A DNA stretch of 64,000 nucleotides. Source: Taxillus chinensis. Lineage: Eukaryota > Streptophyta > Magnoliopsida > Santalales > Loranthaceae. A model generated the notes under the pieces. That model searched no databases and had not been told where the DNA came from. It saw nothing but the letters and a program-made list of their open reading frames with translations. The stretch is from contig CM042092.1 in the NCBI GenBank assembly GCA_023512835.1, positions 50,784,400 through 50,848,399 of the forward strand, written 5' to 3'. The translations under genes were made by a program, and so were the position numbers. Positions 4,876-39,783 of the stretch are shown here, in pieces (position 1 is the first letter of the stretch; each line of letters opens with the position of its first letter).

Positions 4876-6222
4876 TTAAGGTACATAAGGCTTATTATAC
4901 TTGAAGATCATTGTTGCTGCTTTCTCTCTAAGCTCCATTGTCTGCTTCATCGAATAAGTGGTGTGTTGGCTCCAAGATTTGTCCACACTTAAGAATGACT
5001 TGATGAAGTAATAGATAAAGGCCCCGCAACTATCTCCATCTGGCTGTTGTGGCACTTGCTTCTTGCCCCGGAATGTCGCCTTCAGCTTCTCAGTTGGTCT
5101 CAAAGGAGTGATGCTCAACTTTTCATATAATCCGGCTTTCTTCACAGCTTCAGTCAACCTGAGACATAGTGGTTCCCATTGATTCTTTCTTACATACTGC
5201 TCTACAATTTGATGAGAATCAATTAGAATCATCTGTTTGGACTGAATCATGAAGACAGCCGTCATGAAATGTGGCGACATGATCCGGTACGGAATGAGGA
5301 TAGTTGAGAGAGTTCTCCATGGCTTCCTATCCTCAGCAGTTCTGTCGATAAAGGACTGAATGACATCTATACTGGGAAGATAGCCCTCATTCCAGCACGG
5401 CAGAACTTCAAACAAGTGGCCGTCATTGTACAAAGATGGAAACAGCCTCATCTCCATTTTAGCAGCCCTAGAGAAGTTATCAATGTCGTCTGTTGTAAAG
5501 AGGCCTTTCTCTGAACAAAAGGTCCGAATGTTGTCCGGGGAGAAGGGGTATAGGTCAGAGAGACATCTTCTCTCAGCAGAAGACGCAGCATAGCACATCA
5601 TTGCCTTACGCACGCTTCCGTCCGCATCAAGAGGGTCACACGCCGCGTATGATGGGAGGAAGGTGTCAGCTGCGGATGGAGAGGATGGAGGAAGAGCTGC
5701 AGTCGAGGAGCTTGGCTGAGAGAAGCAGCTACGTTTGGGGATTTGAACTCCCTGAAGCAATGAAGAGGCAGGCCGCTTCTCAGCACGAGTGGATGAATGT
5801 GATGCAGGAGGAGCAGAAGGATCAGATGACACTTTCTCCCCCAGTTTGGCAGATCGCCGGGGAGCAACGGGAGGGCGAGCCATCGTGTGCGCTAGGTCCG
5901 CGAAGGAGGTAGACAAGGAGTGGACGGACAATGCGACTAGGTCCATCTTTTGTTCCATGGAGGTGGAGGAGTCGGTGAGGGCGGAGAGGAGTTGGGCGCC
6001 AAGAGCATCAACCTTGGCGGCGATGGCGGATATTTGGGCGCTTTGAGCTTGGGCGTGGCGGTCCAGCTGGGCGGAGAGCACAGCGTCGGAGTGGACCGTG
6101 CCAAAGAAGCACGCCCAAGGGCCAACTCTGAAGCTTTGGAGGACTCCCCCGTATGAACAGGAGCAGGAGTGCATTGGGCGAAGAGTCCGCAGGAGTATCG
6201 CAGGCAGCAGCAGAAGGGGCAT
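4876..6222 (-). CDS. C48 (Ulp1-like) cysteine peptidase part of the Copia cargo gene, intact frame
   Basis: The open frame has 448 codons; the first 40 or so are probably out-of-frame read-in, because sense resembling the family starts near residue 44. Residues 44-110 are a heptad-rich coiled coil, 116-190 are Ser/Pro/Ala-rich and basic, and 200-448 are the peptidase domain. The probable catalytic residues are His318 (SPHFMTAV), Asp335 (LIDSHQ), Gln392 or Gln393 (VPQQPD) and Cys399 (GDSCGAF), in the His-Asp-Gln-Cys order of Ulp1/SENP enzymes. The His-Asp spacing of 17 equals that in the Athila copy. The active-site residues survive although the 5' half of the gene is broken. A SUMO or ubiquitin-like protease activity is inferred from the motif only. 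Confidence 0.75.
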   Translation of the reverse strand: MPLLLLPAILLRTLRPMHSCSCSYGGVLQSFRVGPWACFFGTVHSDAVLSAQLDRHAQAQSAQISAIAAKVDALGAQLLSALTDSSTSMEQKMDLVALSVHSLSTSFADLAHTMARPPVAPRRSAKLGEKVSSDPSAPPASHSSTRAEKRPASSLLQGVQIPKRSCFSQPSSSTAALPPSSPSAADTFLPSYAACDPLDADGSVRKAMMCYAASSAERRCLSDLYPFSPDNIRTFCSEKGLFTTDDIDNFSRAAKMEMRLFPSLYNDGHLFEVLPCWNEGYLPSIDVIQSFIDRTAEDRKPWRTLSTILIPYRIMSPHFMTAVFMIQSKQMILIDSHQIVEQYVRKNQWEPLCLRLTEAVKKAGLYEKLSITPLRPTEKLKATFRGKKQVPQQPDGDSCGAFIYYFIKSFLSVDKSWSQHTTYSMKQTMELREKAATMIFKYNKPYVP

Positions 6223-7567
6223 CCGGAGCGCGGAGACCCGCTTTGACCGGATAGGTCAACAACGGGAATGTCAACGAGCGGGAGAAGAAGGTCCAGCCTT
6301 AGCAGGGGAAGGACTCCGTGCGGCATGAACCGGACTGGAGGGGTTAGGGAACGGCACATCGGGAATGGAGGCCGACGTAAGAAAGCCTTGGTCCAAATTC
6401 CAGATGATCATGGTCTCCGGGGATTGAGTATGGCGAGTGTAAATGGAGGCTGTCGAATGGGGGCTGAAGGCTGAAATGGAGCCAAAGGTCCGTTAAGGTG
6501 TCGGCGGAGAGATGGTCAAGGTAATCTCGGGGTTGAGGTAGGGGAGGCAAAGGAGCTTCCGGGATAGATTCCTGGACATCAGCAATGGCGGCAGCAACGG
6601 CAATATCAACCGCGGCAGCAACAGCGGAAGTGGAGGGAGTGGGGACATCCGTAGCAGAAGGGGCTGAGGAAACACCTCTAGGGACATTGCGCTGAGATGG
6701 CCCCGCAACCTCAGAGGGTTCGGCACGGACGCTGTGCTGGGAGGCCCGAGAAATGGAGGGTGCAGCAACGGACCGAATCCGGGAGGATCGGTGAGCTGAG
6801 CTGACGGCAGGGGCATGGCTGTCGGAGGGGTCACCAACAGAACTGCCTTGTTATTCCGTGGCAGGGAGAAGGCGGAGAGCGGAAGAGGGATGGCGGGCTG
6901 TCATGTTCCCATCAGGCGTGATATAGCGAAGATAATAAGCCAGAGGAAAGGGAACAGCGTCAGAGCGGGCAAAATGGTCCAGATGAAGATGCCGGAAGAC
7001 AATGCTTAGGATGCGCCTGAAGGAATGGTTCTTGGGTCCAGTCTGCAGCAGTTAGAACAAAAACGTCCCCCAGTCCATCGGAAGACCTTCGAAAATGCCG
7101 TACATGACTAGAAGAAGATCGTACGGAACAGAGTCCAGAGCGGAAGTGCAAGCCAGTAAACATCGACTCAGTATGATCGCCATACAGCGATAGCGACCTT
7201 GGAAGGACTTCACCTTGTATTCCTTGCCTTTATAGGTGCAACCCATAGAAGTCGCCATGGGATCGGCATTAGGGCGCTGTGATTCACCGGGGGGTAGACT
7301 GAGAGCAGCGCGGAGAACGTCGGGGGTAATGAGGATGGATTCACCGCAAACATAGGAGACGATGGAGTCGGTGGTACAGCGGATCCGTTGGTAGTACTCG
7401 AGAATGTCGTCTATAAGAAGATCTACAGGATTGGAGATCAAGTCGAGTATGTGAGAGGCTTCTAGAAGAGGGCGAATATGGAAAAACCAGTCCTGAGGGT
7501 TGGAGACAGCGCTCCAATCGACCAAATGTCCAGGATTGACGCCGGAAAGAGAGGTTCTGGGTGCCAT
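4876..7567 (-). pseudogene. Extra gene of the Copia element: plant-transposon-protein-like domain plus C48 (Ulp1-like) peptidase, broken
   Basis: A gene of about 900 codons lies between the pol remnant and the 3' LTR, on the same strand as pol. It starts at ATG 7567 (MAPRTSLSG). The first 171 residues (to 7052) resemble the N-terminal domain of the Athila element's extra gene: DILEYYQRI, ITPDVLRAALSLP, RYRCMAIILSRCLL and ALDSVPYDLLLVMY each have a counterpart there at the same spacing. An in-frame TAA then interrupts it near 7050, although sense continues beyond. A Ser/Pro/Ala-rich linker follows with another stop near 6845 and at least one frameshift before 6222, and the peptidase half runs to 4876. 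No Copia structural protein looks like this. In C48 families the enzyme cuts SUMO- or ubiquitin-like modifiers off proteins; substrate and role here are unknown. Confidence 0.8.
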
Positions 7568-7682
7568 TGTAGATGAAAGTTGAAGGGCGAGAGGGAAAGC
7601 GAGGTCTTAGGGATTGAAGGAGCAATGAGAGTTTTAAGGATTTGAAAAGGGTAACACTCGTGCTTCGCAGGAATGACCAGAA

Positions 7683-7688
7683 TATATA
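7683..7688 (-). promoter_or_regulatory. Candidate TATA box of the Copia cargo gene
   Basis: TATATA in the context cttatatattc on the minus strand lies about 120 nt before the ATG at 7567. The interval becomes pyrimidine-rich (ctcgctttccctctcgccc) right before the start codon, like a plant 5' leader. Confidence 0.45.
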
Positions 7689-7691
7689 AGA

Positions 7692-9088
7692 CCGAGTCCG
7701 TGAATGTCAGCGGGTCTAGGAATTTGGCGAGTGAAACAGTAGACCGCTTGACAGGCTGATGTCATTAGTCTTGATATTGGTGTGCCTCCGAATTAAAAGA
7801 TGACGTGGAGACGGCATGACCAAGTAAGGATAACAGCTGTTTGCCTTCCAGGGGAAGTGTGTGCATCCCGAGACATGCATTTAATGAATCATCATTATTC
7901 CTCCTCAAAAGCACGCGATATAAAATAAGACATGGATTATCGCAATTTGACAGTGTCAGGAGTCCGGAGGAATGAACCGACAATCATCCGGAATCAGCGA
8001 TAGTCGAGTAATGAGTATCCGGATGAAAAGTAGACCGTGTCCGTAGTAACAGAGTGCGGTGAGAAAAAAGTAGATTCCTTTGCTGTCAATAAGTCGGAGA
8101 GAAGAGAAGTACCACAACACTTCAAATCCAAGACTATGGACTGTATTTATCGATAAGGGTGCAAAGAAAATCTGAACCTGTAGCTTCACAAAAATAAGCT
8201 AAAAGTACAAAAGCTTAACAGGCAAGGATTAGTACGGATAGGAGAAAATAGTCAGTGAAGAGCTATATAATCCGAACTAATGAGTAGCAGAACTTGTGCA
8301 TTACAAAGCAGAACTTGTGCATTACAAAGAATGAAATAGACATATACATACTAGAGAATGATCAATGTGACTGAATCAGGGCATATGTCAGATAATAAAT
8401 ACACAGGTTCATATAGGTCAACATAACGAAACCGTCCTCCTGAACGACGTAGCTAAGATTAATTAAAAATCATATGATTTGACCAAACTAGGATTCATGA
8501 GTGAAAAATGAGGAAGGGGACACATGTCAAAAGCAAGCAGTTGATTATCCGATTAAAATGCATGGTTGAAGAAAAAAATACATCCAAGCATGCCATACTT
8601 CTGTTTCAACAACGCATGTCTAGTTAGATCTGGAAGTAAAGGTTTAGAGGAGGGAGTATCTGAGACATATTAGGGGATTATTACTGAGGTAATAGATGAA
8701 GCCTAGGCTCCCCCGTAGATCATTCGATCCTCTCAATGAAAGGCTCCCCCTCGAATAGACAGCCAGGAAAGAGGTCATGAGACATATACGGGGGGTATTA
8801 CTCGAATAATTTATAAAGCATTTTCTCCCCCGTAGATTGTGCAATCCTCTCGATAGACCTTTCCGGCTTAAAGAAACTCAGCACTGTCTATCTTTATAGG
8901 AAACTATACTTCAGAAGCTGATTAGACTGCGATTGTGTATTCATCCACCAGGCATTCGAGCTAACCCATTTCATTTCTTCAACTATACATGTTAATAGAG
9001 TAATCTAAATGAACAGGCATTTGTCATGTGGTGATCAGTGGAAATTAAGATCATGAAACCAGAATGAGGTTAATCATATAAACTTTAA
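7692..9088 (-). other. Non-coding Copia sequence between pol remnant and cargo gene
   Basis: No gene is supported. Two near-identical blocks containing ctcccccgtagat (8709-8738 and 8825-8853) read on the minus strand as purine-rich tracts like the element's own polypurine tract. The rest of the RNase H coding region, expected next to 9089, is missing or scrambled. Confidence 0.5.
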
Positions 9089-9387
9089 TCATGTTTGCTT
9101 AAACGACTTCAGTCGGGAAACGCAAGTATCCTCCAAATATGAAGTTGATATCAATATCAGAAGCATGAACCACGATAAACAGTAAGTATGATCAACATTA
9201 AGAGTCCCAAATTCATCGTTTGGGTACCAGAGTCCCAAATTCATCGTTCCCTTGAGATACCTTAATATCCGTTTAACATGAAGCATATGTGACTCCTTGG
9301 GATTCGCCTGATATCGTGCACAGATGCAAGTTGCAAACATAATGTCTGGGCGACTTGCTGTAAGATACAGCAAGGATCCTATCATCC
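9089..9387 (-). pseudogene. End of Copia reverse transcriptase / start of RNase H, interrupted
   Basis: RGMIGSLLYLTASRPDI and HVKRILRYLKGT are typical of the RT-RNase H connection of Copia polyproteins. The frame joins 14902 across the nested chromovirus: removing it restores D-Y-R-G-M-I. After about residue 65 the family pattern (the GYSDAD region) is lost, so RNase H is deleted or scrambled from here on. Confidence 0.85.
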
Positions 9388-9391
9388 CTCT
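9388..9391. repeat. Target-site duplication (left) of the Reina-like element
   Basis: ctct here equals ctct at 14898-14901. A 4-bp duplication, rather than the usual 5, is confirmed by the restored Copia reading frame. Confidence 0.85.
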
Positions 9392-9776
9392 TGTCACGGA
9401 CTGAGGCTTACCCTAGCATACTTAGGCCATTTTGGGGTATTTCCCCTTTGTAAAGTGTTGTACTTAGCTTATAGAGTAAGTTGTAGAGATTTTAGATTTC
9501 GATCATATATGATGTCTCCTGGCGACATAGCCAAAAACGTGTTAACATCTATATGTAGGGGAGTGATGTTGTAAAGCTTTCAAGCAATCAATACAATCGT
9601 TTGTTGCCTTCGTTTAAATCGATCTTCCGCTAAGCGCTTCCCTACACAATTGCTTTACAACGGATCGATGGGTTCCGATCCAAATGCGACGAGTTAGGCT
9701 GACCTAGCGTTCCTTCGTACGGGTGGGAACTAGGTGCCGCACGGGTTAAGCTGCTATAAAGGCTGACCCCGTGACA
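9392..9776 (+). repeat. 5' LTR of the Reina-like element
   Basis: The 385-bp LTR begins TGTCACG and ends CGTGACA, a perfect 7-bp inverted repeat, and is nearly identical to 14513-14897. Confidence 0.96.
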
Positions 9777-9778
9777 AG

Positions 9779-9790
9779 TGGTATCAGAGC
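9779..9790 (+). other. Primer-binding site (initiator Met tRNA)
   Basis: tggtatcagagc lies 2 bases after the 5' LTR and is the complement of the 3' end of plant initiator-Met tRNA. Confidence 0.93.
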
Positions 9791-9843
9791 ACGGTTGGTG
9801 CCAAAGTTCGGTGGAACAATCAAAACTTTGAGACGGTGCAAAA

Positions 9844-12800
9844 ATGACAAACGGAGGATCTGTTGTCATTAGTGGTGGCGACCACGAAGGCCGCGACAAG
9901 GAGCACCACGCTAAGGAACGGAGGAGAGATAAGTCCGTTTCGAGGGAAACATGTCCGCTGGAGAGTCGGCTAGCCAAGTTGGAGTTGGCGTTAGCCGAAC
10001 AGATGGAGGTGGTCGAGGAGCACACTGAAAGCATCGAAAAGCTGGACTCGAGGGGTGAGGAAAGCTATGGGAGGATGCAAGGGCTTCTCAACTCCGTCAT
10101 GGACGACATGAACTCTCGATTTGAGGGCTTGAAGGGTTCTCTCATGTCCCAAATCCTGGCGATGCAAGAGGAAATCAAAGAGATCAAGGCGGATTGGTCT
10201 CTCTGTAAGATGGCGGTCACCCAAGGTGGCGTTGGCGGCCATTCCAGCTCCAAAATCGATGTGCCAAAGCCTAAGACCTATGCTGGGTCTAGGAATGCAA
10301 GGGAGTTAGACAACTTCCTCTGGACCATGGAGCAGTACTTCGATGCCTTGAATATTGTTGACGAGGCAAAGAAGGTGAAGACCGCTCTGCTATACTTAGT
10401 CGATTCGGCTATGGTGTGGTGGAGGCGACGATATGCCGACAAGGAGTGCGGCCTATGCATTATCGACAATTGGGCAGATTTCAAACGGGAGATCAAGGCC
10501 CAGTTCTATCCCCAGAACGCAGAAGACGAGTCCCGGGCGAAACTTCGGCGCCTTACCCACAAAGGCACGGTGCGGGAGTACGTCCGCGAATTTTCAGAGC
10601 TCATCTTGGAGATCCCGGACATGTCCGCGAAGGATTCATTATTTTCCTTCATGGACGGATTGCAACAATGGGCGAAGCTGGAGTTGCAGCGGAGGAATGT
10701 GCAGGACCTGGCGTCGGCCATGGCGGTGGCCGAATCACTCATCGAATACAAGAAGCCGGAGAAAACCACCAGTTCTTCATCGACTTCCAAGGCGAACAGG
10801 TTCCACAAGGAGAAACATGGGGGAGACAACCGGAGTGAAGGAAAAGGGAGACCCTTCCAACCGTCTAAGGACTTTCGCCCAAAACACTTTGCGAATGGTT
10901 CCAAAGACGGGGAGAAGCCAAGGATCTCCTGTTTCCTTTGTGAAGGCCCTCACAAGGCGTTCGAGTGCCCGAAGCGCTCCAAGCTCTCCGCGATGATCAA
11001 CGAAGACGAAGAGAGGAATGCGAGGGATCCACGACTTGGTTCCTTGCAACTCCTCAATGCAATCAAGGCGAAGGTGGAGGTGCCACCATCCGGACGACAG
11101 AAGGGGCGCATGTACGTGCTCGTTAAGGCCAATAACCTTGAAACTAAGGCCTTGGTGGACACGGGTGCGACCAACAACTTCATTAACGTGGAAGAAGCTC
11201 GTAGACTGGGGATAGTCTACAAAGAAGAAAAGGGCTGGCTGAAGGCGGTGAACTCCAGCGCCAGTCCAATCCATGGCGTGGCTCGAGGTGTCGAGCTAAG
11301 TATTGGCGAGTGGAGAGGCAAGGTGAATCTCTCCGTGGTGTCGATGGACGACTATCCCATGGTGTTGGGGATGGAGTTCGTTAACCAGGTGCGGGCAATT
11401 CCAATTCCTAGCACCAACACAATGTGCATCATGGACGAGGGGAAAACGTGCATGGTGAAGGTAATGCGGGAGGAAGAGCTCAAGGCGAAGTCTCTTTCGG
11501 CGCTCCAACTGTCTAAAGGAGTTAGGCGACAGGAGCCAACCTTCATTGCTATGGTGAAGGAAGGATGCCCAAGTGTTGGGGAGGAGCCCCCAATGGAAGT
11601 GAAGACGGTCCTTGAAGAGTTTGGGGATGTTATGCCACCCGAACTCCCCAAACAACTTCCGCCGAAGCGGGAGGTGGACCACAGAATCGAGCTAGAGGCC
11701 GGTGCAAGGCCTACTGCTGCGGTGCCCTATCGGATGGCACCACCGGAGTTGGAGGAACTTCGAAAACAATTGAAGGACTTGTTGGATGCCGGATTCATTC
11801 GACCATCCAAAGCGCCATTTGGAGCACCGGTGTTGTTCCAAAAGAAGCACGATGGGTCGATGCGGCTGTGCATTGACTATAGGGCGCTAAACAAGATTAC
11901 AGTGAAGAACAGCTACCCCATCCCACTAATATCCGACCTGTTTGATCAACTTGGTGCTGCGAGATGGTTCTCAAAGCTAGACTTGCGGTCGGGATATTGG
12001 CAAGTGCGGATAGCCGAAGGTGATGAGGCAAAGACGGCGTGCGTCACAAGATATGGCTCTTACGAGTTCTTGGTGATGCCCTTTGGCCTCACAAACGCCC
12101 CTGCCACATTCTGTACGTTGATGAACCGGATCTTCCAACCATACTTGGATAGATTCGTCGTGGTGTACCTTGACGACATTGTCGTCTATAGCAAAACGTT
12201 GGAGGAACACAAGGCACACCTACGGCGGGTTTTCCAAATCTTAAGGGAGAACCAACTCTTTGTGAAGAAGGAGAAATGTGACTTTGCGAAGAAGGAGGTG
12301 CCCTTCTTGGGTCACATCATTGGCGGCGGCAAGTTAAACATGGATAACAAGAAAGTGTTAGCCATCAAGGAATGGGAGACGCCCAAGAAAGTCCCTGAAA
12401 TGCATTCCTTCCTTGGCTTGGTTAACTACTATAGAAGATTCATCCGCGGCTATTCCCACATTGCCGCACCCTTGACGGAACTATTAAAGAAGAACAAGAC
12501 TTGGGTGTGGGATGATGCTTGCCGAGAGGCATTCGAGAAGTTGAAGCAAGCCGTGACAAACGGACCGGTGATGGCACTGCCGGACCATACAAAGCCTTAT
12601 GAAGTTCACACGGATGCTTCAGACTTTGCCATCGGTGGAGTTCTTATGCAGGAGGGGCATCCAGTAGCATATGAGAGCCGGAAACTCAATGGCACCGAAC
12701 GGAGGTACGCGGTGCATGAAAAGGAGATGACGGCCGTTATGCATTGCCTTCGGGTGTGGAGGCATTACTTGCTAGGGTCCAAGTTCGTGGTGAAGACGGA

Positions 12801-13704
12801 CAACATTGCTACGAGTTACTTTCTTACTCAAAGGAACTTAACTCCGAAGCAAGCACGGTGGCAAGGACTCCTAGCGGAATTCGACTTTGTGCTCGAGTAC
12901 AAACCGGGCACAAATAATGTGGTGGCTGATGCACTAAGTCGGAAGGCGGAACTTGCAGCCATTAGCCAACCACAATTCCCCCTGGTAGACAAATTAAAGG
13001 AAGGAATGGAGCATGACCCATTAGCCAAGTCCTTGGTGGAATGCGTCAAAGCTGGGAAGACGCGGCGATTTTGGCTAAGGGATGACTTGCTCCATACTCG
13101 AGGGGAACGGGTGTACGTTCCTAAATGGGGAAGTTTGAGGAGAGACATCCTCAAAGAATGTCACGACTCGCGGTGGGCTGGCCATCCCGGAGTCGATCGT
13201 ACCTTGGCGTTGGTGGAAAGGAGCTACTATTGGCCTCAACTTTACGAGGACGTTCAAGTGTACGTGAGGACTTGTCTTGTGTGCCAACAAGACAAGATAG
13301 AGAATCGGCAGTCGGCGGGACTGTTAGAACCTTTGCCTACTCCGGAAAGACCTTGGGAAAGTGTTTCGATGGACTTCATTGTTTGTCTCCCAAGATCCGA
13401 AGGATGCGGTACGATCATTGTGGTGGTCGACCGATTCTCTAAGTATGGAGTTTTCATTCCAGCTCCGAAGGACTGCACGGCAGACGACACGGCCCGACTA
13501 TTCTTCAAGTACGTGGTGAAGTACTGGGGCATTCCAAAGACAATCGTGAGCGATCGGGACTCACGATTCACTGGGCGGTTTTGGACCGAGCTGTTCCGGA
13601 TAATGGGTTCGGACTTAAACTTTTCAACAAGTTTCCACCCACAAACAGACGGCCAAACAGAACGTGTCAATGGCTTATTGGAGCAGATTCGAGGCACTAC
13701 GTGA
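9844..13704 (+). CDS. Gag-pol polyprotein of the Reina-like chromovirus (frameshifted in integrase)
   Basis: The 1,286-codon frame starts at the first ATG after the primer site. In order: gag capsid with a VWWRRRY-type region (about residues 130-310), a zinc knuckle [13 protein letters not shown] (about 360), aspartic protease [11 protein letters not shown] (about 437), reverse transcriptase with YLDD (near 776), RNase H starting [10 protein letters not shown] (about 925), and integrase with its zinc-binding HPGV..CLVCQQ region (about 1115-1150), SMDFI and SDRDSRF. At about 13690 one base is missing relative to the frame of the following segment, so this frame ends at RGTT while the integrase continues in the next one. 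It acts in the virus-like particle that copies the element. The knuckle has three rather than four residues between its second Cys and the His. Confidence 0.93.
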
Positions 13705-14537
13705 GTGCCAACCAAAGAGATTGGGCCAAGTTGTTGGACATAGCCCAATTCTCATATAACTTGCAAAAGAGCGAGTCCACGAACGAGAGTCCGTTCGAAC
13801 TCGCAACTGGGCAGCAACCATTGACGCCCACTTCCATCACTCGGGGGTACACTGGAAAAAGCCCCGCGGCGTTCAAGTTTGCAAAAGGATGGCATGAACA
13901 GACGGATCTGGCCAGGGCATACTTGCACAAAGCGGCGAAGAAGATGAAGAAGTGGGCGGATCAACAAAGGAGGCCCTTGGAATTCCAGGAAGGAGACATG
14001 GTGATGCTCAAACTCCTTCCGCGCCAAACCAAAGCACTTAGACAATTGCATAAGGGTTTGGTGCGCCGATATGAGGGGCCTTTCAAAGTACTTAAGAGAG
14101 TTGGGAAGGTCTCATACAAACTGGACCTCCCGACTAGCTTACAAAGGCATCCGGTGTTCCACGTTAGTTTGCTCAAGCCTTACCACGAAGACTTGGAAGA
14201 TACGAGCGGACAACGGGTGGTGCGGACACCAACAGCATCAACGGGCAAGACCTACGATAAAGAGATAGAGAAAATCCACTCTCGTAGAGTCGTGCCAAGA
14301 AGGGGCGTAGAACCAAGCCGGGTGGAGTACTACGTCCAATGGAAGAACAGGCCAGTTGAAGAGGCAAGCTGGGAGAAGGAAGAGGATCTGGGGCAATTCT
14401 CCAAAGAGATTGAAGAGTACCGGGAAGAAACCGAACGCTACATCCAGCAGTTCGACGAGTTCGAGGAAGCCGAAGACGCAACGAGGACGCTGCGAAATCG
14501 GGTGGGGGAGAATGTCACGGACCGAGGCTTACCCTAG
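13690..14537 (+). CDS. Integrase C-terminus and chromodomain of the Reina-like element
   Basis: This continues the integrase after the one-base loss ([15 protein letters not shown]), with the [15 protein letters not shown] region, then the C-terminal DNA-binding part ([12 protein letters not shown]). It ends in a chromodomain ([16 protein letters not shown]), which in chromoviruses steers integration toward marked chromatin. The stop codon (14535-14537) lies inside the 3' LTR, which starts at 14513, so the last eight residues or so are LTR-encoded. Confidence 0.88.
14499..14512 (+). other. Polypurine tract of the Reina-like element
   Basis: gggtgggggagaa lies directly before the 3' LTR and also codes for the end of the polyprotein. 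Confidence 0.85.
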
Positions 14538-14897
14538 CATACTTAGGCCATTTTGGGGTATTTCCCCTTTGTAAAGTGTTGTACTTAGCTTATAGAGTAA
14601 GTTGTAGAGATTTTAGATTTCGATCATATATGATGTCTCCTGGCGACATAGCCAAAAACGTGTTAACATCTATATGTAGGGGAGTGATGTTGTAAAGCTT
14701 TCAAGCAATCAATACAATCGTTTGTTGCCTTCGTTTAAATCGATCTTCCGCTAAGCGCTTCCCTACACAATTGCTTTACAACGGATCGATGGGTTCCGAT
14801 CCAAATGCGACGAGTTAGGCTGACCTAGCGTTCCTTCGTACGGGTGGGAACTAGGTGCCGCACGGGTTAAGCTGCTATAAAGGCTGACCCCGTGACA
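14513..14897 (+). repeat. 3' LTR of the Reina-like element
   Basis: 385 bp, one visible difference from 9392-9776. It is followed by the TSD ctct at 14898-14901. Confidence 0.96.
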
Positions 14898-14901
14898 CTC
14901 T

Positions 14902-28174: not shown

Positions 28175-28848
28175 TCCTATGTAAGGACCCGTACCTTGAG
28201 TTAGTCACAGTTTTGCCTTCTGAGTAGAGTTTTTTTTTCTAGATTTTGACCTAGTGAATGGGCTCAAATGAATTCACGTGCAAAAGGAAAGATGCTTAGA
28301 ATGATGTCCTCTATCTACCACAGAAGTTTCAAGCCAAACGGACGTGTATGTGAGGTGCACGTGAAATGGGTCCATTTCACGTACAAGTGTGGTTGTCTTC
28401 TACATGATGCAAGGAGGCTAGGGGTGAAGTTTGAGCGCATTTGGAGTGCATTTGGAGTTGCACGTGAATTGGGGAATTCACGTTCAAATTGGCATGCAGC
28501 CATATTTTTGCATGATTCCCTTGGTTTTGACATTCTAATGATCTTCCTCCAAAGGACCATGTTGAAATTCTGAGTATTTTGGCCTATATGGGTGCGGAAA
28601 GGTGCTAACTTGTGTGATCAAAACTAAGTCGTTTTGATCCTGGGATTTACTTAATCGAAACTACGTCGTTTTGATGTGGGTAGTGTCTATATAATGAGGG
28701 CTTGAGTTTGAGTTTAGGGTTCTTGTGTTCTTCTTTGCTGCAGTTGCTGCCAGAGAGAGAGAGAGAGAGAGAGGATCTCTGGGCAGTTGTCGTGGTGGTT
28801 CGCGTCGTTGGAAGGTGTCTAGTGTAGAGGTTAGGACAAAAGTCTGAG

Positions 28849-29748: not shown

Positions 29749-30153
29749 GGTTTAGCAGGCGGTAGGTGAAGGCTGAGGAGCTAGGTCCCTGAGGCTGGGA
29801 GTTTTATGTTATTTCCTTTGTCGTGCTTGTGGTTTTATGTTCTAGAATTTGGTTTGGTTTTATTTGTAACAGTACACCTGGCTTCATAGGGGTTTTTCCC
29901 CGACTGGGTTGTAATAAACATTTAGTCTTTGAAATGAAATAAAATGAGATGTTGTTATTCAATTTGTGTTTGTGTGCATGGTTTGGGAGCAGGAGCATGC
30001 CCCTTGGCATGTTAGCCTGGTTGTGCAGGTTTGGGACAGCACCCATGCTAGAAGTCCTTTTAAGGTGCTTGCACCAACCCCTTGTCCCTTCGGGTGCGGG
30101 CATGGGCAGTCACTACTCATTTCCAAGTGGAAGGAAATTGGGGCGTGACAATA

Positions 30154-30165
30154 TGGTATCAGAGC
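30154..30165 (+). other. Primer-binding site of the Tekay-like element (Met tRNA)
   Basis: tggtatcagagc, three bases after the 5' LTR. Confidence 0.93.
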
Positions 30166-30617
30166 GATAGTTCATGGTCTGGTGGACCTAGGATAGTGGG
30201 GAGGCCTGGGCGCTTCGAGACTCTTAGGAGGCGGTATAGGACACGCCTGATCAACGTGGTCCTATCTGGTCTTCCGGGGTGTACTCGGGGGGTAGTTAGA
30301 CCAAGGAGTAGGGCATTTGCATTTGGGTTGAGGGTGCATACATGCATTGGCATTAGGGCACTAGTTTAATTTCAGTATGAGTATCGTGATTGGACATGCT
30401 ATGTTGCTGAAACTTGTTGCTAAAAACAAAATTTTGTTGCTGTGAAATTCGGTGATTTTCTGTGAGGCTTGTTGCTATGAATTGCTGCTGTGTACTTCTG
30501 TGATTTACCTGTGTGTTTAAATGTAAAACGTTGCTAGAGTACGTCATTGCCCATGGGGATGAGGGTGTGTAGAGCTTGAGAGAAGCTGATCCTAGTTTGG
30601 TTTAAATTATGTAGACT

Positions 30618-33600
30618 ATGCCTCCTAGGAGAGTAACCCGAGCTACTCCAGCTGTAGAAGATGAATCTTCTGCACGTGCTGGAGAGGAAAGAGGACAGCA
30701 TGTAGAGGGCGATGATCCCCTGGAGCGGATCATGGCCCAAGTCCGGGCCCTAAGTGAGAACGTGCAAGGCATGCGTGAGGACCTCAAGGGAGAGATCCTA
30801 AACGAGGTGCGTCAGGAGATGATGGCACGACAGGCAGTGCCACCCTCTCCACCCCGTGAGGCGGAACCTCCGTGTAGGCGGGAAGTGCCAGTGAGGCGGG
30901 AAGAGGGAGACGTGTTGACGCAGTTCCGAAAGGAACATCCACCAAGGTTCAAGGGAGGAGCCGAACCTCTAGGAGCAGAGCACCTGGCTGCGGCAGATCG
31001 AGCATGTGTTCTCCTTTCTTCGACCACGGGAGGAAGACAAAGTGAGACTAGTAGTCTGGCAGTTGGAGGAGGAAGCCTTGGAATGGTGGCTTAGCATCTC
31101 AGGAAGCCGGGACATGGAGACCATGGCCTGGTATGAGTTCCTCTAGCTGTTCCATGAGGTGTTCTTTCCAGAGTCATTGCGGTGGCAGAAGCGGGAGGAG
31201 TTCGGCGGCTGAAGCGGGGGATCGCGCTCGGTAAGCGAGTATGAGCGAGATTTCCGGGGGCTGAGTCGGTTGCTCCAGAGCAATATCAAGGGAGGACCTG
31301 AAGGCCCATAAGTTTACCATGGGTCTCAAACCTGCCCTGAAGCAAAGGGTGGAGATGCTGTGACTGAAGACCTATGCTGAAGTCATGGACACCGCCAAGA
31401 TTGTTGAGAGAGGATTAGAGGAGGGAAGACAGGCTCACCAGGAGCGGATGGGGCAGAGCACGCGCGACAAGCACGGTGAAACCAAGAGGCAGAAGGTTGA
31501 GCCCGGGAGTGGGACTTTTCCCAAGGATAGGGGCCAAGCTTCAATGGCTCCACCTAGATCCCGTTACTTTGGAGGACAGGGAGTGTCTTTGGGAACTTCC
31601 CAAGCGGGTGTACCTGTTGTGGCTGTCGGGGGCACGTCAAACGTGAGTGCCCCAAGCGGCACTTGACGTGTCATAGCTGTGGGAAGGTGGGACACATCAG
31701 CAAGGTGTGTTTCAGCAAGGGGAACAGCCGGAGAACTGGAAGCTTAGCACAAGGGAGCAGGGGTGGGACCCAATTTCAGGCCCCAGCCCCTAAGCTAGTA
31801 CATTCGTGGCAGGCCAGTCAGGCTAGTTCTAGTCACACTAGGCCACAGGGGGAGAGGCAACCACAAGGAGGATCGAAGGGGCGTCCCAGTGGACTGCAGG
31901 TAGGAGAAAAAGGGAAGGCAAGTGAGGCTAGTGGTGGGGCAGGCCAAGGCAGAGTGTTCGCGCTTACCTCAGCACCAGCTGAAATGGAGGAATTACCATC
32001 ACCCTCCGAGGAAGGTGGGGCTGGACCTTCGGTGGTTCGAGGTACTATTCTAATATCTCGCACTATTGTTGCTGCATTGTTTGATACCGGAGCTTCGTGT
32101 TCCCTGATTGCTAAGTCCTTGGTGGAGAGCCTTGGACTTGATTGTGTGGAGGCTGATAGACCTCTGAGGGTCGAGTCCCCAATGGGAGGTGTGGAGTTGA
32201 TCCACCAAATGTGTCGAGAGTGTGCGCTTACGATAGGAGAGGTTGACCTCTCATTTGATTTGTACGTAATGCCCATGAGGACTTTTAGTTTGATTATGGG
32301 GATGGACTGGTTGATGGCCTTTCAGGCTAAGATTGACTGCTATAGGCGACGAGTATCATTTACTACACTCACAGGATCTTCCTGTACCCTAGTGGGTGAA
32401 TGGGATTGGAATGCTGGGAGAGTTGGACCGACGAGGGAGCTATGGGGCAATATTACCCATAGGCTTGCCACCCTAACCTTTGAGGAGGAAGGTAACTTAG
32501 AGAAAAGGGTGTGGCCAGATGTTGTCGAAAATTTCCAGGATGTCTTTCCTGGGGAGTTGTTGGAGTTGCCTCCACACAGAAGTATCGAGTTCATGGTTGA
32601 ACTGTTGCCAGGGGTGGGACCCATCTCACAAGTAGCATACCGGATGGGACCTGCTGAGTTGCGGGAGCTTTAGAAGCAAATAAAGGAACTGGGAGATAAA
32701 GGTTTTATCCGTCCTAGTACCTCACCTTGGGGTGCACCGGTCTTGTTTGCTAAGAAGGCAGATGGTTCGTTGCGACTTTGCATTGATTATCGGAAGCTGA
32801 ATCAAGTAACGGTAAAGAACAAATACCCTTTGCCACGGATCGATGACTTATTCGACCAGCTGAGTGGAGCACGGTGGTTCTCAAAAATCGATCTGCGTTC
32901 GGGATATCATCAATTGAGGGTCAGGAGCGAAGACATCCCTAAGACGGCGTTCAGGTGCAGATACGGACACTATGAGTGGTTAGTGATGCCTTTTGGGCTC
33001 ACGAACGCACCTGCCGTGTTCATGCATCTAATGAATCAGGTATTTGCCCCATACCTGGATTCCTTCGTGGTGGTATTTATTGACGACATCCTTGTGTACT
33101 CCAAAACCCAAGCTGAGCATGAGGAGCACTTGGCCGTGGTGCTTGCGGGCGCTACGAGATCATCACTTGTATGCTAAATTTAGCAAGTGTGACTTCGGAT
33201 GCGAGAGGTGCATTTTCTTGGGCATGTGGTATCTGCCGAAGGAGTTAGAGTGGACCCAACCAAGATTGAGTCCATAGCATCTTGGAAGAGGCCCACAAAT
33301 GTTTTTGAGATCCGGAGTTTCTTGGGTCTGGCAGGGTATTACCGGCGTTTTGTGGAAGGATTTTCTCGGTTGGCGGCGCCCATGACAGCTCTTACACGGA
33401 AGGGAGCCAAATTCGAGTGGACGGACAAGTGCCAGCAGGCATTCGAGGAGTTGAAGACTCGCCTGACTACTGCACCGATGTTGAGTCTACTGCAGGAGGG
33501 AGTGCCATTCGAGGTGTATTGTGATGCGTCTCGCGTTGGACTGGGGTGTGTTCTGATGCAAGAACGCCACGTCATAGCATATGGCTCGCGACAATTGAAG

Positions 33601-35346
33601 TCCCATGAGCAAAACTACCCAACACACGACCTGGAGTTAGCAGCAGTTATTTTTGCCCTGAAGTCTTGGCGACATTACCTGTTGGGAGAGAAATTTGTGG
33701 TATATATTGACCACAAAAGCCTACAGTATATCTTCACCCAGAGAGACCTAAATTTGCAACAACGGAGGTGGGTAGAGTACCTGCAAATGTTTGACTTCAC
33801 GCTCTCCTACACGCCTGGGAAGGGAAATTTAGTAGCCGACGCGCTAAGTAGAAAAGGGAAAGCTGAGGTTTCCATGAGAGAATAGAAAATGATGGAGCAG
33901 TTGGCAGTGCTTCAGGTGCAACCTGCTTTTAGCAGTGAGGGAGCTATCCTGTGTCCTCTCACTGTGATACCAGAGTTGTATCAGCGTGTCCGTGAGGGAC
34001 AGTTAGGCGACGTGGACTGTGAGATGATCCGGGCCCAGATAGAGGCTGGAGAGCTGTCAGAGAGCTGGACAGAAGGAGTTGAGCATGAGCTGAAATTTCG
34101 GGGGCATTTGATAGTACCACCTCCCTTGCGTGAGGATGTGCTGAGGGAATTTCATCATTCCCGTTTGGCTGTACATCCAGGAGGGTAGCAGAGTTTGTTT
34201 CCAGGTGCCTCACCTGTCAGCAAGTGAAGGCAGAGCACCAACGACCCGCTGGTCAATTGCAGCCTTTACCTGTACCTGAGTGGAAGTGGGAGCATATTAC
34301 CATGGACTTTGTGACGGGACTTCCTACCACTTCTGGGAGGAAGGACATGATTTGGGTCATAGTGGACCGCTTAACTAAGTCAGCCCATTTCTTGGCAATT
34401 CGAGAGCGCGACTCTATCGGCACGTTAAGCTAGTTGTATGTTGATAAGATTGTCCGCCTGCACGGAGTGCCCTTGTCTATTGTTTCGGACAGGGATGCGC
34501 GGTTTACATCCCGGTTTTGGGGAGGTCTGCAGGAAGCATTAGGAACCCGACTTAATTTGAGTACCGCATTCCATCCTGAGACTGATGGTCAGTCCGAGAG
34601 GACCATTCAAACATTGGAAGACTTGTTGAGGGCTTGTGTACTTGATTTTGGAGGATCATGGGCTTCCCACCTTCCTCCTGGTGGAGTTTGCCTATAATAA
34701 CGATTACCGGTCTTCGATTGGGATGGCCCCGTTTGAGGCATTGTATGGCCGACCGTGTCGGTCTCCATTATGTTGGGCGAGCGGAGAGGCAGCTATGTTA
34801 GGACCTCAATTGGTCCAGGAGGCTACGGCAAAAGTTCAGCTGATTCGGCAATGCCTTCTTCTGCTCGGAGCGCGACGAAGTCTTATGCGGATCGCCGACG
34901 CCGACCGTTGGAGTTTTTGGTGGGAGACCACATATTCCTTCGTGTTTCTCCACGGAGAGGGCATAAGAGATTTGGGACTGGGTCCAAGTTGTCCCCTTGG
35001 TACATTGGACCGTTCGAGATTTTGAGCAGAGTTGGACTGTTGCTTATAGGTTGGCGTTACCACCTAGTTTGAGCGAGTTCATAATGTTTTCCATGTATCC
35101 CGGTTGCGGAAATATCATCCAGATCCCACACACGTGCTAGATTGGGGTACCCTAGATCTTGGAGAGGATGTGTCATTGTCGAGGCACCCATCCGTATTGT
35201 AGATAGCGCGAGAAGCGGCTGCGAGGTAAGACTATTCCGTTGGTTCGGGTGTTGTGGCAACACCGAGGGCTGGAGGAAGAGACCTGGGAACGTGAGGCTG
35301 AGATGCGTGCTCATTATCCTGCTCTGTTCGAGGACGAACAACTCTG
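30618..35346 (+). pseudogene. Gag-pol of the Tekay-like element, heavily mutated
   Basis: It starts at ATG 30618 (MPPRRVTRATP). Gag runs to about 31660, with a one-base insertion near 30980, a TAG at 31146 and further lesions. Then a zinc knuckle CHSCGKVGHISKVC (31669), protease ALFDTGASCSLI (about 32080), a TAG at 32671, RT from 32700 with FIDD at about 33078, a frameshift near 33145, RNase H ([12 protein letters not shown]), a TAG at 33883, and an integrase with stops near 34187 and 34431 and frameshifts from about 34680. Remnants of a Tekay/Del-type chromodomain follow, ending at CRTNNSEG-like sequence near 35346. At least ten lesions are visible. The related pol at 55202-60001 has different lesions. 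Confidence 0.92.
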
Positions 35347-35572
35347 AAGGAAGGGAGGAGGGCAAGCATCAAACTTCAACATAATCAGGTATTTGCCCAA
35401 CTAGTTAGGTAACCTGAGAATATAACATCGCTACATGACCATGTGGAGTGTATAAATGTGTGAAATAATTTGTGATTTGTTGTGTATTAATTTGTGCTAG
35501 AGGGTGTTAGAGGCCTATGCATTGGTTGTGATTGTTTTCTTTCATTCCACCTTTTCTTTTCGAGGACGAAAA
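35347..35572 (+). other. 3' untranslated region of the Tekay-like element
   Basis: AT-rich, no gene. It ends with a second copy of the ttcgaggacgaa phrase that also closes the coding region (35325 and 35558). Confidence 0.6.
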
Positions 35573-35590
35573 GTCTTAAGGGGGAGAGGA
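35573..35590 (+). other. Polypurine tract of the Tekay-like element
   Basis: cttaagggggagagga lies directly before the 3' LTR. Confidence 0.9.
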
Positions 35591-37205
35591 TGTAAGGACC
35601 CGTACCTTGAGTTAGTCACAGTTTTGCCTTCTGAGTAGAGTTTTTTTTTTCTAGATTTTGACCTAGTGAATGGGCTCAAATGAATTCACGTGCAAAAGGA
35701 AAGATGCTTAGAATGATGTCCTCTATCTACCACAGAAGTTTCAGGCCAAACGGACGTGTATGTGAGGTGCACGTGTAATGGGTCCATTTCACGTACAAGT
35801 GTGGTTGTCTTCTACATGATGCAAGGAGGCTAGGGGTGAAGTTTGAGCACATTTGGATTGCATTTGGAGTTGCACGTGAATTGGGGAATTCACGTTCAAA
35901 TTGGCGTGCAGCCATATTTTTGCATGGTTCCCTTGGTTTTGACATTCTAATGATCTTCCTCCAAAGGACCATGTTGAAATTCTGACTATTTTGGCCTATA
36001 TGGGTGCGGGAAGGTGCTAACTTGTGTGATCAAAACTACGTCGTTTTGATCCTGGGATTTACTTAATCGAAACTACGTCGTTTTGATGTGGGTAGTGTCT
36101 ATATAATGAGGGCTTGAGTTTGAGTTTAGGGTTCTTGTGTTCTTCTTTGCTGCAGTTGCTGCCAGAGAGAGAGAGAGAGAGAGAGAGAGGATCTCTGGGC
36201 AGTTGTCGTGGTGGTTCGCGTCGTTGGAAGGTGTCTAGTGTAGAGGTTAGGACAAAAGTCTGAGGTAGGGATTCATGTTCTTCCTAACTCTCCTCTATTC
36301 TAGGATATTCGCCTATATATATATATGTAAATCCATATAGGTGTGATCTCCTATATGGATGTTGGCCTTCAGTGGCATGTTCTGTTGATTCTGATGTTGA
36401 ATTTGGCCTGAGGATTTTCTGGGTTTGTTTATGCCCACCATGTGTTTGATGAAATGTCTGTGAGGCCTGCACACTATGTATTTGATAAAATGCCTGTGAG
36501 GCCTGCATGCCATGTATTCAATATAATACCTGTGAGACCTTGTATATGGGTGTCTGATGATATACCTGTGTGACTGGTGTGTACTGTGTTTGATTTGTAT
36601 TTGATAAAAAGCCTGTGAGGCTAATGTGTGTGGCTTGTATCTGACCATGTTGGTCCCTCTGAAATAAAGTGTAAATGCTGTGCTGAGTTTACATGTCGAG
36701 ATGTAATGCTATCTTTGTTCGTTGGTCTGTTTGAGACTGAGCTGAGATATGGGCCAGGCACAATAGCTGGACCCCTTTGAGATTTGGCCAGGACGTGGTC
36801 GTGAGTCTCGGTGTAGCACTCACGACGGTGGGTTAAGTCTACACCCATTCCTGAGGGTAGGTATGGTGCCCGAGGAGGTGGTTGACCATATCTGACTCGG
36901 GTGGAAAATGTTGCATTGGTGTCCATGCAACATTCGCCTGGATGTGGTATGTCATGTTGCCGTGGTGGCGGGGTGTCCTCTGCCCTTCAGTGCGGGCTCA
37001 GGTAAAGAGTGTTTACTGGGTGATGTTTGCTACTTTAGCCTTAGGCACGACACGAGCACAAGCATACACATATCATGCATGTTGTAGAGCGGGACGGGTC
37101 TGGGGAGACTGGATCCCTACTGAGCTATGGTTTGCTCACCCCTCCTATAAACTGTCCTTTTGCAGGGTTTAGCAGGCAGTAGGTGAAGGCTGAGGAGCTA
37201 GGTCC

Positions 37206-37210
37206 CTGAG
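37206..37210. repeat. TSD (left) of the solo LTR at 37211
   Basis: ctgag, repeated exactly at 39061-39065. The intact 5' LTR has this motif once at the same place. Confidence 0.95.
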
Positions 37211-37550
37211 TGTAATGACCCATGTTTTGGGTAGAACAAGCTGGAACGAAGATGAACAATACCCTGGGCGAACGCTTGGGTCGAAAGGTGGAAGACCCGA
37301 AGATTTGGGTCGTAGGGTCGAAGACCGAGGGTCAAAGTTCGAAGGTTTGAGGGTCGAAAGTTAGATCTTCGAGACAGATCTTCGAGGCCACGTTTCCAGC
37401 TAATCTTCGAAGGAGTGTTTCTACGAGTCTTCGTGGCTTGGTTGTTAGAGTGTAATGAGCTCAAGTGGGAGCGTGTAGAGGCTGCGTGTGACAATGACCA
37501 TGTTCGGATTGTGGGTATTTTGTCCTGTGTGGAAGCGGAGTGGTTAGTTC

Positions 37551-37765
37551 ATGTTTTATTTATCAAAACTACGTCGTTTTGATGGTGTGTTTTATTTATC
37601 AAAACTACGTCGTTTTGATGGTGTGTTTTATTTATCAAAACTACGTCGTTTTGATGGTGTGTTTTATTTATCAAAACTACGTCGTTTTGATGGTGTGTTT
37701 CATTTATCAAAACTACGTCGTTTTGATGGTGGGATTTCATTTATCAAAACTATGTCGTTTTGATA
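37551..37765 (+). repeat. Tandem 36-bp repeat built on the ACGT palindrome
   Basis: Six units of tttatttatcaaaactacg.., each holding one palindrome with core actacgtcgttttgat, ending 8 bases before the TATA box. Other LTRs have one or two copies. Open frames on both strands here are repeat artefacts. Confidence 0.93.
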
Positions 37766-38344
37766 AGTGAGGTCTATATAAAGAGGAGCTCTCTTTATTT
37801 TGGGTTTAGGGTTTTTGTTGTCAGCCGCCGCAGCCGTCACAGAGAGAGAGAGAGGGAGATTGAGAGAGAGAGCTCCGGTTCGTGGGTCGTCGTTGTCATT
37901 CCCGTGGTTGGACGGCATTAAGCGTGGAGGCAAGAGCGTGGAGGATCTTTGAGGTAGGGGTTCTGTCTTTCCTGGGTATGTTCCAGGGTTAGGCCCTGTG
38001 GATATTTTGTAAAGTTTCCATTGTTATTGCTATAATACTTATATGTAAATTCATATAGGTGTGATCTCCTATATGAATGTTGGCTTTCAATGGCATTTTG
38101 GTGTGATTCTGATGTTGGGTGGGTAGTGCATGTTAAATGTTTGATAAAATGCCTATGTGAATATGTTTGTATGAATATGCCCAGTATGTGTTTGATAATA
38201 TGCCAGTATGGCTAGAATTGTGAGTTGGTAAAGGTGTGCATGCCAAGTGCTGGTTTTTATGCCTGAGTGGTTGGGTTTGTACATTTGTGAATGTGTGCCT
38301 ACTAAGTGTTTGGTTTTATGCCTGAGTGGTTATGTATACTGTGT

Positions 38345-38525
38345 TTTGTGAAACCCGGTGGCTGTGGAAGCCCGGGACTGTTTTGTGAAACCTGGTGGCT
38401 GTGGAAGCCCGGGACTATTGTGAAACCCGGTGGCTGTGGAAGCCCGGGACTGTTTTGTGAAACCCGGTGGCTGTGGAAGCCTGGGACTGCTCTTGGAAAC
38501 CCGGTGGCTGTGGAAGCCTGGGACT
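38345..38525 (+). repeat. Tandem repeat, 35-38 bp unit (ggtggctgtggaagcc)
   Basis: Five imperfect units inside the predicted intron of the solo LTR. A similar 38-bp array lies in the intron of the solo LTR at 48475-50423. Confidence 0.9.
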
Positions 38526-39427
38526 GTTCATGTGTTAGCCTGTGTGGCTGTGGAAATAATTGTATTTGCTGATATAGCTTGCCATTATATTTGTTGAAAT
38601 AATTGTATCACGACACTGCACTTGTACACATGGCATGTAGATGCTAGGAGCATGGGATGGGTTGGGGAGACATAATCCCTATTGAGCTGTGGTTGCTCAC
38701 CCCTCCTACTGTGTTTGGTTTTTCTACAGGGACCTACAGGCGTTAGGCGGGAACACCCAAGTTGGAGGCAGTTCTGTTTTGTGGCTTTGTTTATTATTAT
38801 TTGAGTTTCACTGTTTTTGTGTGAGCTTTGTAACCCCAGTGGGAGGATATTGTAATGAGGAGTTTTATGTAATAAAAGCATATTTGGGCACTCTTGTATG
38901 TTTGGACTTAATAAAAATATGGTTTTTGTCTCTCTAAATATAAAATGTGAAGTGTATGGTATCCTGTGTGAGCATGTTGTATTCTATCCCCTTTATCCAA
39001 ACTCGGGTAAAGGGAAGGTCACGTTCCGGTCTCCTCGGGTTGGAAATCTGGGGCGTGACACTGAGGCTGGGAGTTTTATGTTATTTCCTTTGTCGTGCTC
39101 GTGGTTTTATGTTCTGGAATTTGGTTTGGTTTTATTTGTAATAGTACACCTGGCTTCATAGGGGTTTTTCCCCGACTGGGTTGTAATAAACATTTAGTCT
39201 TTGAAATGAAATAAAATGAGATGTTGTTATTCAATTTGTGTTTGTGTGCATGGTTTGGGAGCAGGAGCATGCCCCTTGGCATGTTAGCCTGGTTGTGCAG
39301 GTTTGGGACAGCACCCGTGCCAGAAGTCCTTTTAAGGTGCTTGCACCAACCCCTTGTCCCTTCGGGTGCGGCCATGGGCAGTCACTACTCATTTCCAAGT
39401 GGAAGGAAATTGGGGCGTGACATCCTA

Positions 39428-39783
39428 GGCTTAGTTGAGGAAGGCTATCACTGGGTGCAGGGAGGTTAAAGCAATGTCTAATAATTTCAGGGGTAATTCT
39501 GACATAAACCCCTTACACGACCCCTATCAGTTCATCCTCACTCACACAGACAGATGCATAAAATTCTTGTAGGGCAGAGTAGGAAATAGCTGGGTCAGGC
39601 GGATACTAACCTTTGTAATCCCAGATTTTGAATTTTAAGAGCCACCTCTCTAGCCCAGCCCAGCTCTAAAGCCTCCAAAGCCTGCATATCAAGAGCATGC
39701 CCCAAGAGTATTTCCTCTTCAGGTTCGCTATCAGCACTAGGTGAGTGCACCTCCTCCTGGCCAGTCCTCCTTGTGCGCACCAT
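39428..39783 (-). pseudogene. N-terminus of the Athila C48 cargo gene
   Basis: ATG at 39783 (context aagATGG) opens MVRTRRTGQEEVHS, an acidic leader, then WAREVALKIQNLGLQRLVS. A frameshift near 39600 and a TAA at 39515 interrupt it, but sense continues: SALQEFYASV and VYVRITPEIIRHCFNLP match DILEYYQRI and ITPDVLRAALSLP of the Copia cargo gene at the same spacing. At 39428 the reading frame passes without a stop through one TSD copy into 28174. The domain resembles the plant 'putative plant transposon protein' family, which often accompanies Ulp1-like domains. The name is from memory; the match between the two copies is seen directly. Confidence 0.78.

Follow-up and report, generated by a model that had tools for sequence, protein, structure and literature searches.

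What does it mean when retrotransposons of two superfamilies carry what looks like the same additional gene? The question is raised by a stretch of 64,000 nucleotides (nt) of Taxillus chinensis DNA (assembly GCA_023512835.1, CM042092.1, positions 50,784,400-50,848,399 of the forward strand; hereafter the window), in which two minus-strand elements, one a Copia and the other a Gypsy of the Athila type, each contain a sense-oriented gene between pol and the 3′ long terminal repeat (LTR), here called the cargo gene. The two genes proved to be homologous, decayed copies of one gene that share slot and orientation. The explanation that we favour, to which we assign a probability of about 0.55, is that this accessory third gene would encode an intracellular C48-type cysteine peptidase and that the Copia and Athila copies descend from one fused gene.

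The Two Cargo Genes Are Homologous in Both End Domains

The Copia cargo gene spans positions 4876-7567, with its ATG at 7567. The Athila cargo gene is cut in two by a nested Gypsy element (39783-39423 and 28177-26177), and past the insertion it continues in a single frame, 28177-26177, with two TAG stops; the peptidase piece 26177-27073 is uninterrupted. A first-pass annotation, made from the sequence alone, had proposed that both elements contain the same two-domain gene, citing pairs of short motifs, and direct reading found these pairs in both genes at the places given for them.

The pieces of the two genes were compared separately by local alignment, with 1000 shuffles of the Athila piece as the null. 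The peptidase parts aligned with a score of 176, compared to a shuffle maximum of 63 (z = 29; 0 of 1000 shuffles as high). The N-terminal (N) part of the Athila gene that follows the insertion aligned with the Copia gene with a score of 133 (shuffle maximum 48, z = 25.8), and the N part that precedes it with a score of 67 (shuffle maximum 54, z = 9.7). In tblastn searches of the whole window, both peptidase pieces reached their partner (E values of 1e-16 and 3e-17), as did the Athila N part after the insertion (E 1e-17), and the Copia N part reached the Athila gene (E 3e-12) and the Athila 5′ part (E 0.003). The same search gave no partner for the short pieces of the Athila 5′ region, for the middle of the Athila gene or for the low-complexity piece of Copia. 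By alignment and tblastn, the two-domain gene is thus homologous between the two elements and has its domains in the same order; it lies within the boundaries of each. The common order that had been claimed holds for the N domain and the peptidase, whereas the coil and linker between them gave no alignment (z of -0.5 and 0.7 relative to shuffles), and the succession of a coil and then a low-complexity linker needs amending, as the Copia gene has a low-complexity stretch upstream of the coil too.

The active-site residues are 17 (His to Asp) and 7 (Gln to Cys) residues apart in both peptidases, with an Asp to Cys distance of 64 in Copia and 55 in Athila. The spacing of 17, previously cited as a link between the two genes, is indeed identical, but because SENP1 also has 17 we regard it as a family trait and dropped it as an argument. 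The core peptidases are 23.7% identical over 241 residues, with 63.9 bits in BLAST (64-74 range) and 46.5 bits in phmmer; closeness was judged on the HMMER scale, by the latter value, and not by setting BLAST bits against HMMER bits. On this scale, the Copia core peptidase scored 46.5 bits to Athila versus 18.0 to the C48 family model PF02902 and had no match to solved SUMO proteases, and the Athila core peptidase scored 46.5 bits to Copia versus 37.6 to PF02902 and 14.6 to solved SUMO proteases. The margin in favour of the mutual match is therefore wide for Copia and small for Athila.

The closer match of the two peptidases to one another than to the family model argues against two separate captures of a C48 gene from the host or from a Mutator-like element (MULE), in which case the likeness would be a family likeness only. 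Plant MULEs are reported to capture C48 genes repeatedly (PMC6117577, PMC13317346), the coil and linker do not align, and the Athila peptidase is, on the HMMER scale, only slightly closer to Copia than to PF02902, all of which such captures would account for; however, both end domains are homologous and in the same order, and the Copia peptidase is far closer to Athila than to PF02902 or to solved SUMO proteases (no match at E 10). We consider separate captures rather unlikely. The evidence speaks more for a common gene with the fusion already in place than for two unrelated captures, as two different host captures would hardly give this result. Its acquisition may have been by repeated capture from one mobile source or by exchange between elements.

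Naming of the Domains

The first-pass annotation had named a C48 peptidase domain (PF02902) and a plant transposon domain (PF20167, Transposase_32) in each gene. One of these four domain-gene combinations passes its Pfam threshold, namely C48 in Athila, with 37.6 bits, E 2.7e-9 and a cut-off of 20.7; C48 in Copia, Transposase_32 in Copia and Transposase_32 in Athila (5′ part only) are sub-threshold. Because of these outcomes, we use the labels C48 for the Athila peptidase, C48-like for the Copia peptidase and Transposase_32-like for both N domains. In Pfam, the Copia N part and the Athila 5′ part each matched PF20167 and nothing else, with 20.0-20.6 bits for Copia and 14.7 bits (E 0.029, profile positions 18-63) for Athila, relative to a cut-off of 45, and the two matches begin at nearly equal places in the profile, 20 for Copia and 18 for Athila. 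Database entries exist in which PF20167 and PF02902 occur together.

The Athila His, Asp, Gln and Cys residues align with those of SENP1 that we take to be catalytic, and by alignment with Athila all four positions are kept in the Copia peptidase. A profile built from both peptidases gave SENP1 as the best match among PDB sequences (E 0.0043), and the Copia peptidase alone matched no solved structure, SUMO proteases included, at E 10. In the AlphaFold2 model of the Copia piece 4876-6255, the coil was the sole part modelled with fair confidence (block predicted local distance difference test, pLDDT, of 66-84 over residues 61-120). Among the 50 VIA-align matches listed, 49 fell on the first 138 residues (the coil side) and one, a non-peptidase, on residues 358-425, which is uninformative on the peptidase fold.

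Both Genes Lie Within LTR Elements

LTRs and element limits were determined by self-BLAST of the whole window, followed by inspection of flanks and junctions. The Copia element spans 3290-21414 and is flanked by GGATC and TGATC, a target duplication with four of five bases the same. The Athila-type element spans 23164-47762 and is flanked by ATAGG and ACAGG, again 4/5 bases, with the LTR end set at CA, 1 base inside the aligned end. The first-pass annotation had left room for an independent host gene hit by element insertions. Because the LTR pairs and these near-perfect target duplications enclose each cargo gene along with pol, we conclude that neither is a host gene, and that reading is extremely improbable.

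A KAONASHI-like MULE, that is, a separate DNA transposon nested in both elements, would explain a C48 gene as such, given that MULEs carry such genes and that the annotation of an Arabidopsis gene of the Ulp1 family includes the N domain DUF1985 (PMC5821449). However, six inverted repeats were found in the flanks and genes and none of the six brackets a gene, the flanks of each gene had no inverted match to each other at E up to 1, and no DUF1985 or Mutator match was obtained in Pfam. Furthermore, the gene is enclosed by LTRs, and about 140 bp separate the end of the Copia gene from the polypurine tract (PPT). Because no inverted repeats bracket either gene, we regard a separate DNA transposon as very improbable, even considering that some MULEs reportedly lack terminal inverted repeats (PMC13317346).

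The junction before the Copia 3′ LTR reads, on the minus strand, TGGGGGAG/AT/TG, which matches 11 of 12 positions of the Sirevirus PPT AGGGGGAG followed by AT/TG (consensus from PMC2829016). Clustered PPT copies of the Sirevirus type were absent near the Copia 3′ LTR, with only the terminal one within 0.5 kb and one exact PPT octamer at 8744, upstream of the cargo gene, and there were no CGG-CCG palindromic repeats in either Copia LTR, where other TCCG/CGGA boxes are common. Because it has neither PPT clusters nor these palindromes, the element was not classed as a Sirevirus. The primer binding site (PBS) that adjoins its 5′ LTR, TGGTATCAGAGC, we take to be of the tRNA-Met type. An RNase H-like frame of its pol, recognised by eye, is at 9391-9092, on the other side of a nested Gypsy element.

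The pol of the other element is of the Gypsy type, with reverse transcriptase (RT), RNase H and integrase and with no chromodomain match (Pfam) in its open reading frame (ORF). The name Athila was taken over from the first-pass annotation and is used here provisionally, on the basis of the pol type, the PBS-like site and the slot of the extra gene.

Decay and Former Coding State of the Genes

The Copia cargo gene has same-frame stops at 7052-7054 and 6851-6853 and at least one frameshift between about 6350 and 6255, the place of which decides whether up to two further stops count; from 6255 to 4879 the frame is open. This gives 2 same-frame stops (at most 4) in 864 codons, compared to 3 in 786 codons, plus at least one frameshift, for Athila. 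Simulation under a simple substitution model of our own choosing, with substitution at about half the LTR divergence, predicted 1.3-1.5 stops for Copia (95% range 0-3 or 0-4) and 1.8-2.0 for Athila (0-5), whereas random sequence of the same composition would have 29 and 42. The stop counts thus fit decay after insertion, which makes it probable that both frames were open at the last move of the elements and had stayed so over a protein divergence of three quarters.

Signals Upstream of the Cargo Genes

In Copia, 1.5 kb lie between the last pol-like frame (9092, recognised by eye) and the start of the cargo gene; in Athila, the distance from pol (40639) is 0.86 kb. Because of these distances, plain read-through from pol is unlikely and separate expression is probable. 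Exactly one TATAWAW motif per gene is present within 500 bases upstream of the ATG. By Markov resampling, the chance of such a motif in a 100-base stretch, which was picked afterwards, is 1.8% for Copia and 1.2% for Athila, and by motif density in 2300-64000 it is about 4.5% per gene.

Four CACGTG boxes, a motif also of the element's LTR, lie in the gap between pol and the Athila cargo gene; of 854 windows of equal length outside the listed LTRs, none has as many. Parts of the gap match the element's own LTR (E down to 6e-9) and the nested Gypsy LTR (5e-10), in both orientations. Together, the TATA boxes and the LTR-type boxes before the Athila gene suggest that the cargo gene had its own internal promoter. 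Repeats common to the LTR and the region before ENV have been published for Sireviruses (PMC2829016); the presence of LTR-type boxes upstream of a third gene is alike here, clearly so for the Athila gene and not for the Copia gene. A 2020 review attributes the transcription of env-like genes to the 5′ LTR (PMC7264820).

A Possible Function and Origin of the Gene

The usual name for sense ORFs at the 3′ end is envelope-like, and the two genes occupy the same slot as the ENV genes of Sireviruses and Athila (PMC7264820, PMC2829016). A C48 domain is present here, however. In a simple hydropathy scan, none of the Athila pieces showed a strong membrane segment (maximum 19-residue mean 1.32), and in Copia four windows were marginal; they fall into two stretches, one rich in Ala (1.76) and one beside the frameshift (1.63). 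With its C48 peptidase, its transposon domain at the N terminus and its coil, and lacking a clear membrane segment, the predicted product fits an intracellular enzyme that takes off a ubiquitin-like tag. The likely role is that of an intracellular de-conjugating protease and not an envelope, and an envelope-like protein is very unlikely.

In the explanation that we favour, the gene would encode an N domain like Transposase_32, followed by a coiled coil with flexible linkers and, for catalysis, a C48 domain of the Ulp1 type, and would be transcribed from an internal promoter (TATA at -121 in Copia and -132 in Athila, with LTR-type boxes in Athila). The N domain and the coil could oligomerise the enzyme or place it on its target, and the peptidase could free its substrates, for which host silencing factors or proteins of the element are the natural candidates, of SUMO or a related tag. 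Removal of the tag would then help expression or integration of the element. A role in countering SUMO- or ubiquitin-dependent silencing, proposed in the first-pass annotation, is likewise hypothetical. One lineage or both would have received the gene from another mobile element.

A more specific course of events is that an Athila 3′ ORF of the PF20167 type gained C48 and then reached Copia by template switching between co-packaged RNAs. PF20167 has been found in a sunflower Athila 3′ ORF (PMC11728184), Athila ORF-1 is reported from 16% of Athila elements (PMC6317226), and LTR stretches are common to the Athila-type element and another Gypsy element in this window. On the other hand, two sequences give no direction, and the sunflower protein (487 amino acids, aa) is described, in the parts of that source available to us, without C48 (PMC11728184). 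We offer this direction tentatively. Similarly speculative is a generalisation, in which the envelope slot of Sirevirus-type Copia and Athila elements, two plant LTR groups that have long gone by the name of endogenous retroviruses, would be that of one exchangeable, self-promoted de-conjugating protease gene, used for intracellular counter-defence or protein stability and not for cell entry, and passing between superfamilies as a module, perhaps together with LTR-like promoter boxes.

Several points weigh against the explanation that we favour. Both gene copies are dead, and no intact relative turned up. The Copia C48 score of 18.0 bits, in the only Pfam match of that piece at E up to 10, does not reach the threshold of 20.7; the N domains of both genes are far below the PF20167 cut-off, and the Athila N part past the insertion had no Pfam match. 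The AlphaFold2 models are poor (mean pLDDT of 42 for the N part, blocks of 28-63 for the Copia peptidase), and in a Foldseek search with the low-confidence Copia model, yeast Ulp1 took ranks 1-3 of 248 with E values of 0.10-0.17, which is not significant. The TATA boxes are insufficiently rare to prove a promoter. LTR-like TCCG/CGGA boxes upstream of the Copia gene, 12 versus 4.1 in shuffles, were rejected as a promoter argument since 74 of 849 other windows reach this number. Lastly, C48 genes borne by Arabidopsis MULEs have been judged unlikely to act on SUMO (PMC6117577).

Searches of protein collections for relatives gave none at E 0.001 (7997 and 7986 candidates) and none at E 1 (423 candidates). 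Among viral contigs, there was 1 pattern match for the cargo gene, unconfirmed, and 14 for the Athila pol used as a control, none confirmed. Because even the pol control matched nothing among the viral contigs, these negative results weigh little.

Feature Coordinates and Neighbouring Sequences

Table 1. Features of the two elements and their cargo genes (positions in the window).
Feature	Position	Strand	Remarks
Copia 3′ LTR	3290-4732	-	Self-BLAST 96.6% to 19981-21414
Copia cargo, C48-like peptidase	4897-5724	-	His 5271-5269, Asp 5220-5218, Gln 5049-5047, Cys 5028-5026
Copia cargo, coiled coil, predicted helical	5878-6087	-	AlphaFold2 helices, residues 57-126 of piece 4876-6255
Copia cargo, Ser/Pro/Ala-rich low-complexity stretch	6347-6850	-	No Pfam match; read directly
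Copia cargo, Transposase_32-like (PF20167) region	7043-7405	-	20.6 bits, E 4.5e-4, profile 20-149 of 177; stop at 7054 read as X
Copia TATA-like box, TATATAT	7682-7688	-	-121 of cargo ATG
Gypsy with chromodomain nested in Copia element	9392-14897
Copia gag-pol	14898-19980	-	gag_2, CCHC, gag pre-integrase, RVT_2; several stops and frameshifts
Copia 5′ LTR	19981-21414	-	PBS TGGTATCAGAGC adjoins
Athila-type 3′ LTR	23164-24675	-	Self-BLAST 96.9% to 46263-47762
Athila cargo, C48 peptidase	26198-27025	-	His 26545-26543, Asp 26494-26492, Gln 26350-26348, Cys 26329-26327
Athila cargo, middle: coil-like stretch (by eye) and linker	27077-27673	-	No family above Pfam cut-off
Athila cargo, remainder of N domain	27677-28177	-	44% identity over 57 aa to Copia
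Nested Gypsy splitting Athila cargo	28180-39422	+	LTRs end near 28180 and 39422; flanked on each side by the target duplication TCCTA
Athila cargo, 5′ part	39423-39783	-	ATG 39783, frameshift near 39600, stop 39513-39515; Transposase_32-like region begins
Athila pol-cargo gap	39784-40638	-	Four CACGTG boxes, a motif also of its LTR
Athila TATA-like box, TATATAA	39909-39915	-	-132 of cargo ATG
Athila pol	40639-43476	-	RT, RNase H, integrase; open over 945 codons
Athila-type 5′ LTR	46263-47762	-	PBS-like TGGCGCCGTTGCCGGGGA adjoins

Nine ACGGAGTA/TACTCCGT units are present in each Copia LTR, at 3913-4321 and 20596-21005. The LTRs of the Athila-type element and of the nested Gypsy element have in common a stretch of about 330 bp with about 71% identity, in the same orientation relative to the element, at 24191-24506, 28244-28572, 35656-35984, 47278-47593, 49912-50294 and 60331-60646. 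The stretch, with a related motif, ATCAAAACTACGTCGTTTTGAT, shortly upstream of the TATA box, is LTR promoter sequence common to Gypsy groups.

The right LTR of the nested Gypsy element contains an LTR-like insertion at 37211-39060, with several copies of a CAAAACTACGTCGTTTTGATGGTG unit. A second Athila-like pol, at 60928-63468 on the plus strand, is open over 846 codons, and the slot for its 3′ gene lies outside the window. A long AT-rich inverted repeat (1-651 versus 1630-2281, 84%) within 1-2281 is perhaps another transposon or a foldback element.

Comparison with Known Systems

Both the occurrence of PF20167 in Athila elements and that of C48 in other transposons have been described before. 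No report of a C48 domain, or of a PF20167-C48 fusion, in a Copia or Athila element was found among the open-access literature matches listed, and subscription journals may hold one. The text of PMC11963269 does not contain the C48 domain, the accessible portions of PMC12786077, PMC13013560 and PMC2410132 hold nothing on it, and Ulp1 genes are mentioned in passing, not within an LTR element, in PMC5240378 and PMC10438386.

The closest counterparts in position are the sense extra ORFs of plant LTR elements (aORF-3S or eORF-3′F, env-like), which likewise lie between pol and the 3′ LTR, in the SIRE and Athila lineages (PMC6317226, PMC7264820). Such ORFs occur in 74% of SIRE elements and form 19 groups with little mutual similarity (PMC6317226), and their role, envelope or not, was unclear or controversial according to the 2020 review (PMC7264820). 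In the portions of these sources available to us, no C48 domain is named, whereas here one peptidase gene is present in both a Copia and an Athila-type element. The 3′aORF of sunflower Athila 14 (PF20167, 487 aa) is also a sense 3′ ORF of an Athila element with Transposase_32; in the corresponding portion of that source no peptidase is reported (PMC11728184), whereas here C48 follows and the PF20167 match is sub-threshold.

The KAONASHI and KIU genes of MULEs are likewise transposon-borne C48 genes (PMC6117577, PMC13317346), but they belong to DNA transposons, whereas the genes described here are in LTR elements and have an N domain that matches PF20167 and not DUF1985. Ginger1 transposases and the NeSL and Utopia non-LTR elements also carry a C48/Ulp1 domain (PMC2836005, PMC4640811), there fused to the transposase or RT protein and in other element classes and hosts. 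A recognisable enzyme domain in a gene common to a Copia and a Gypsy element makes the function of such a gene testable, and that gene would exemplify exchange across LTR superfamilies. Taken with those of MULEs, Ginger1 and NeSL/Utopia, Ulp1-type domains in LTR elements would indicate that mobile elements have made repeated use of de-conjugation.

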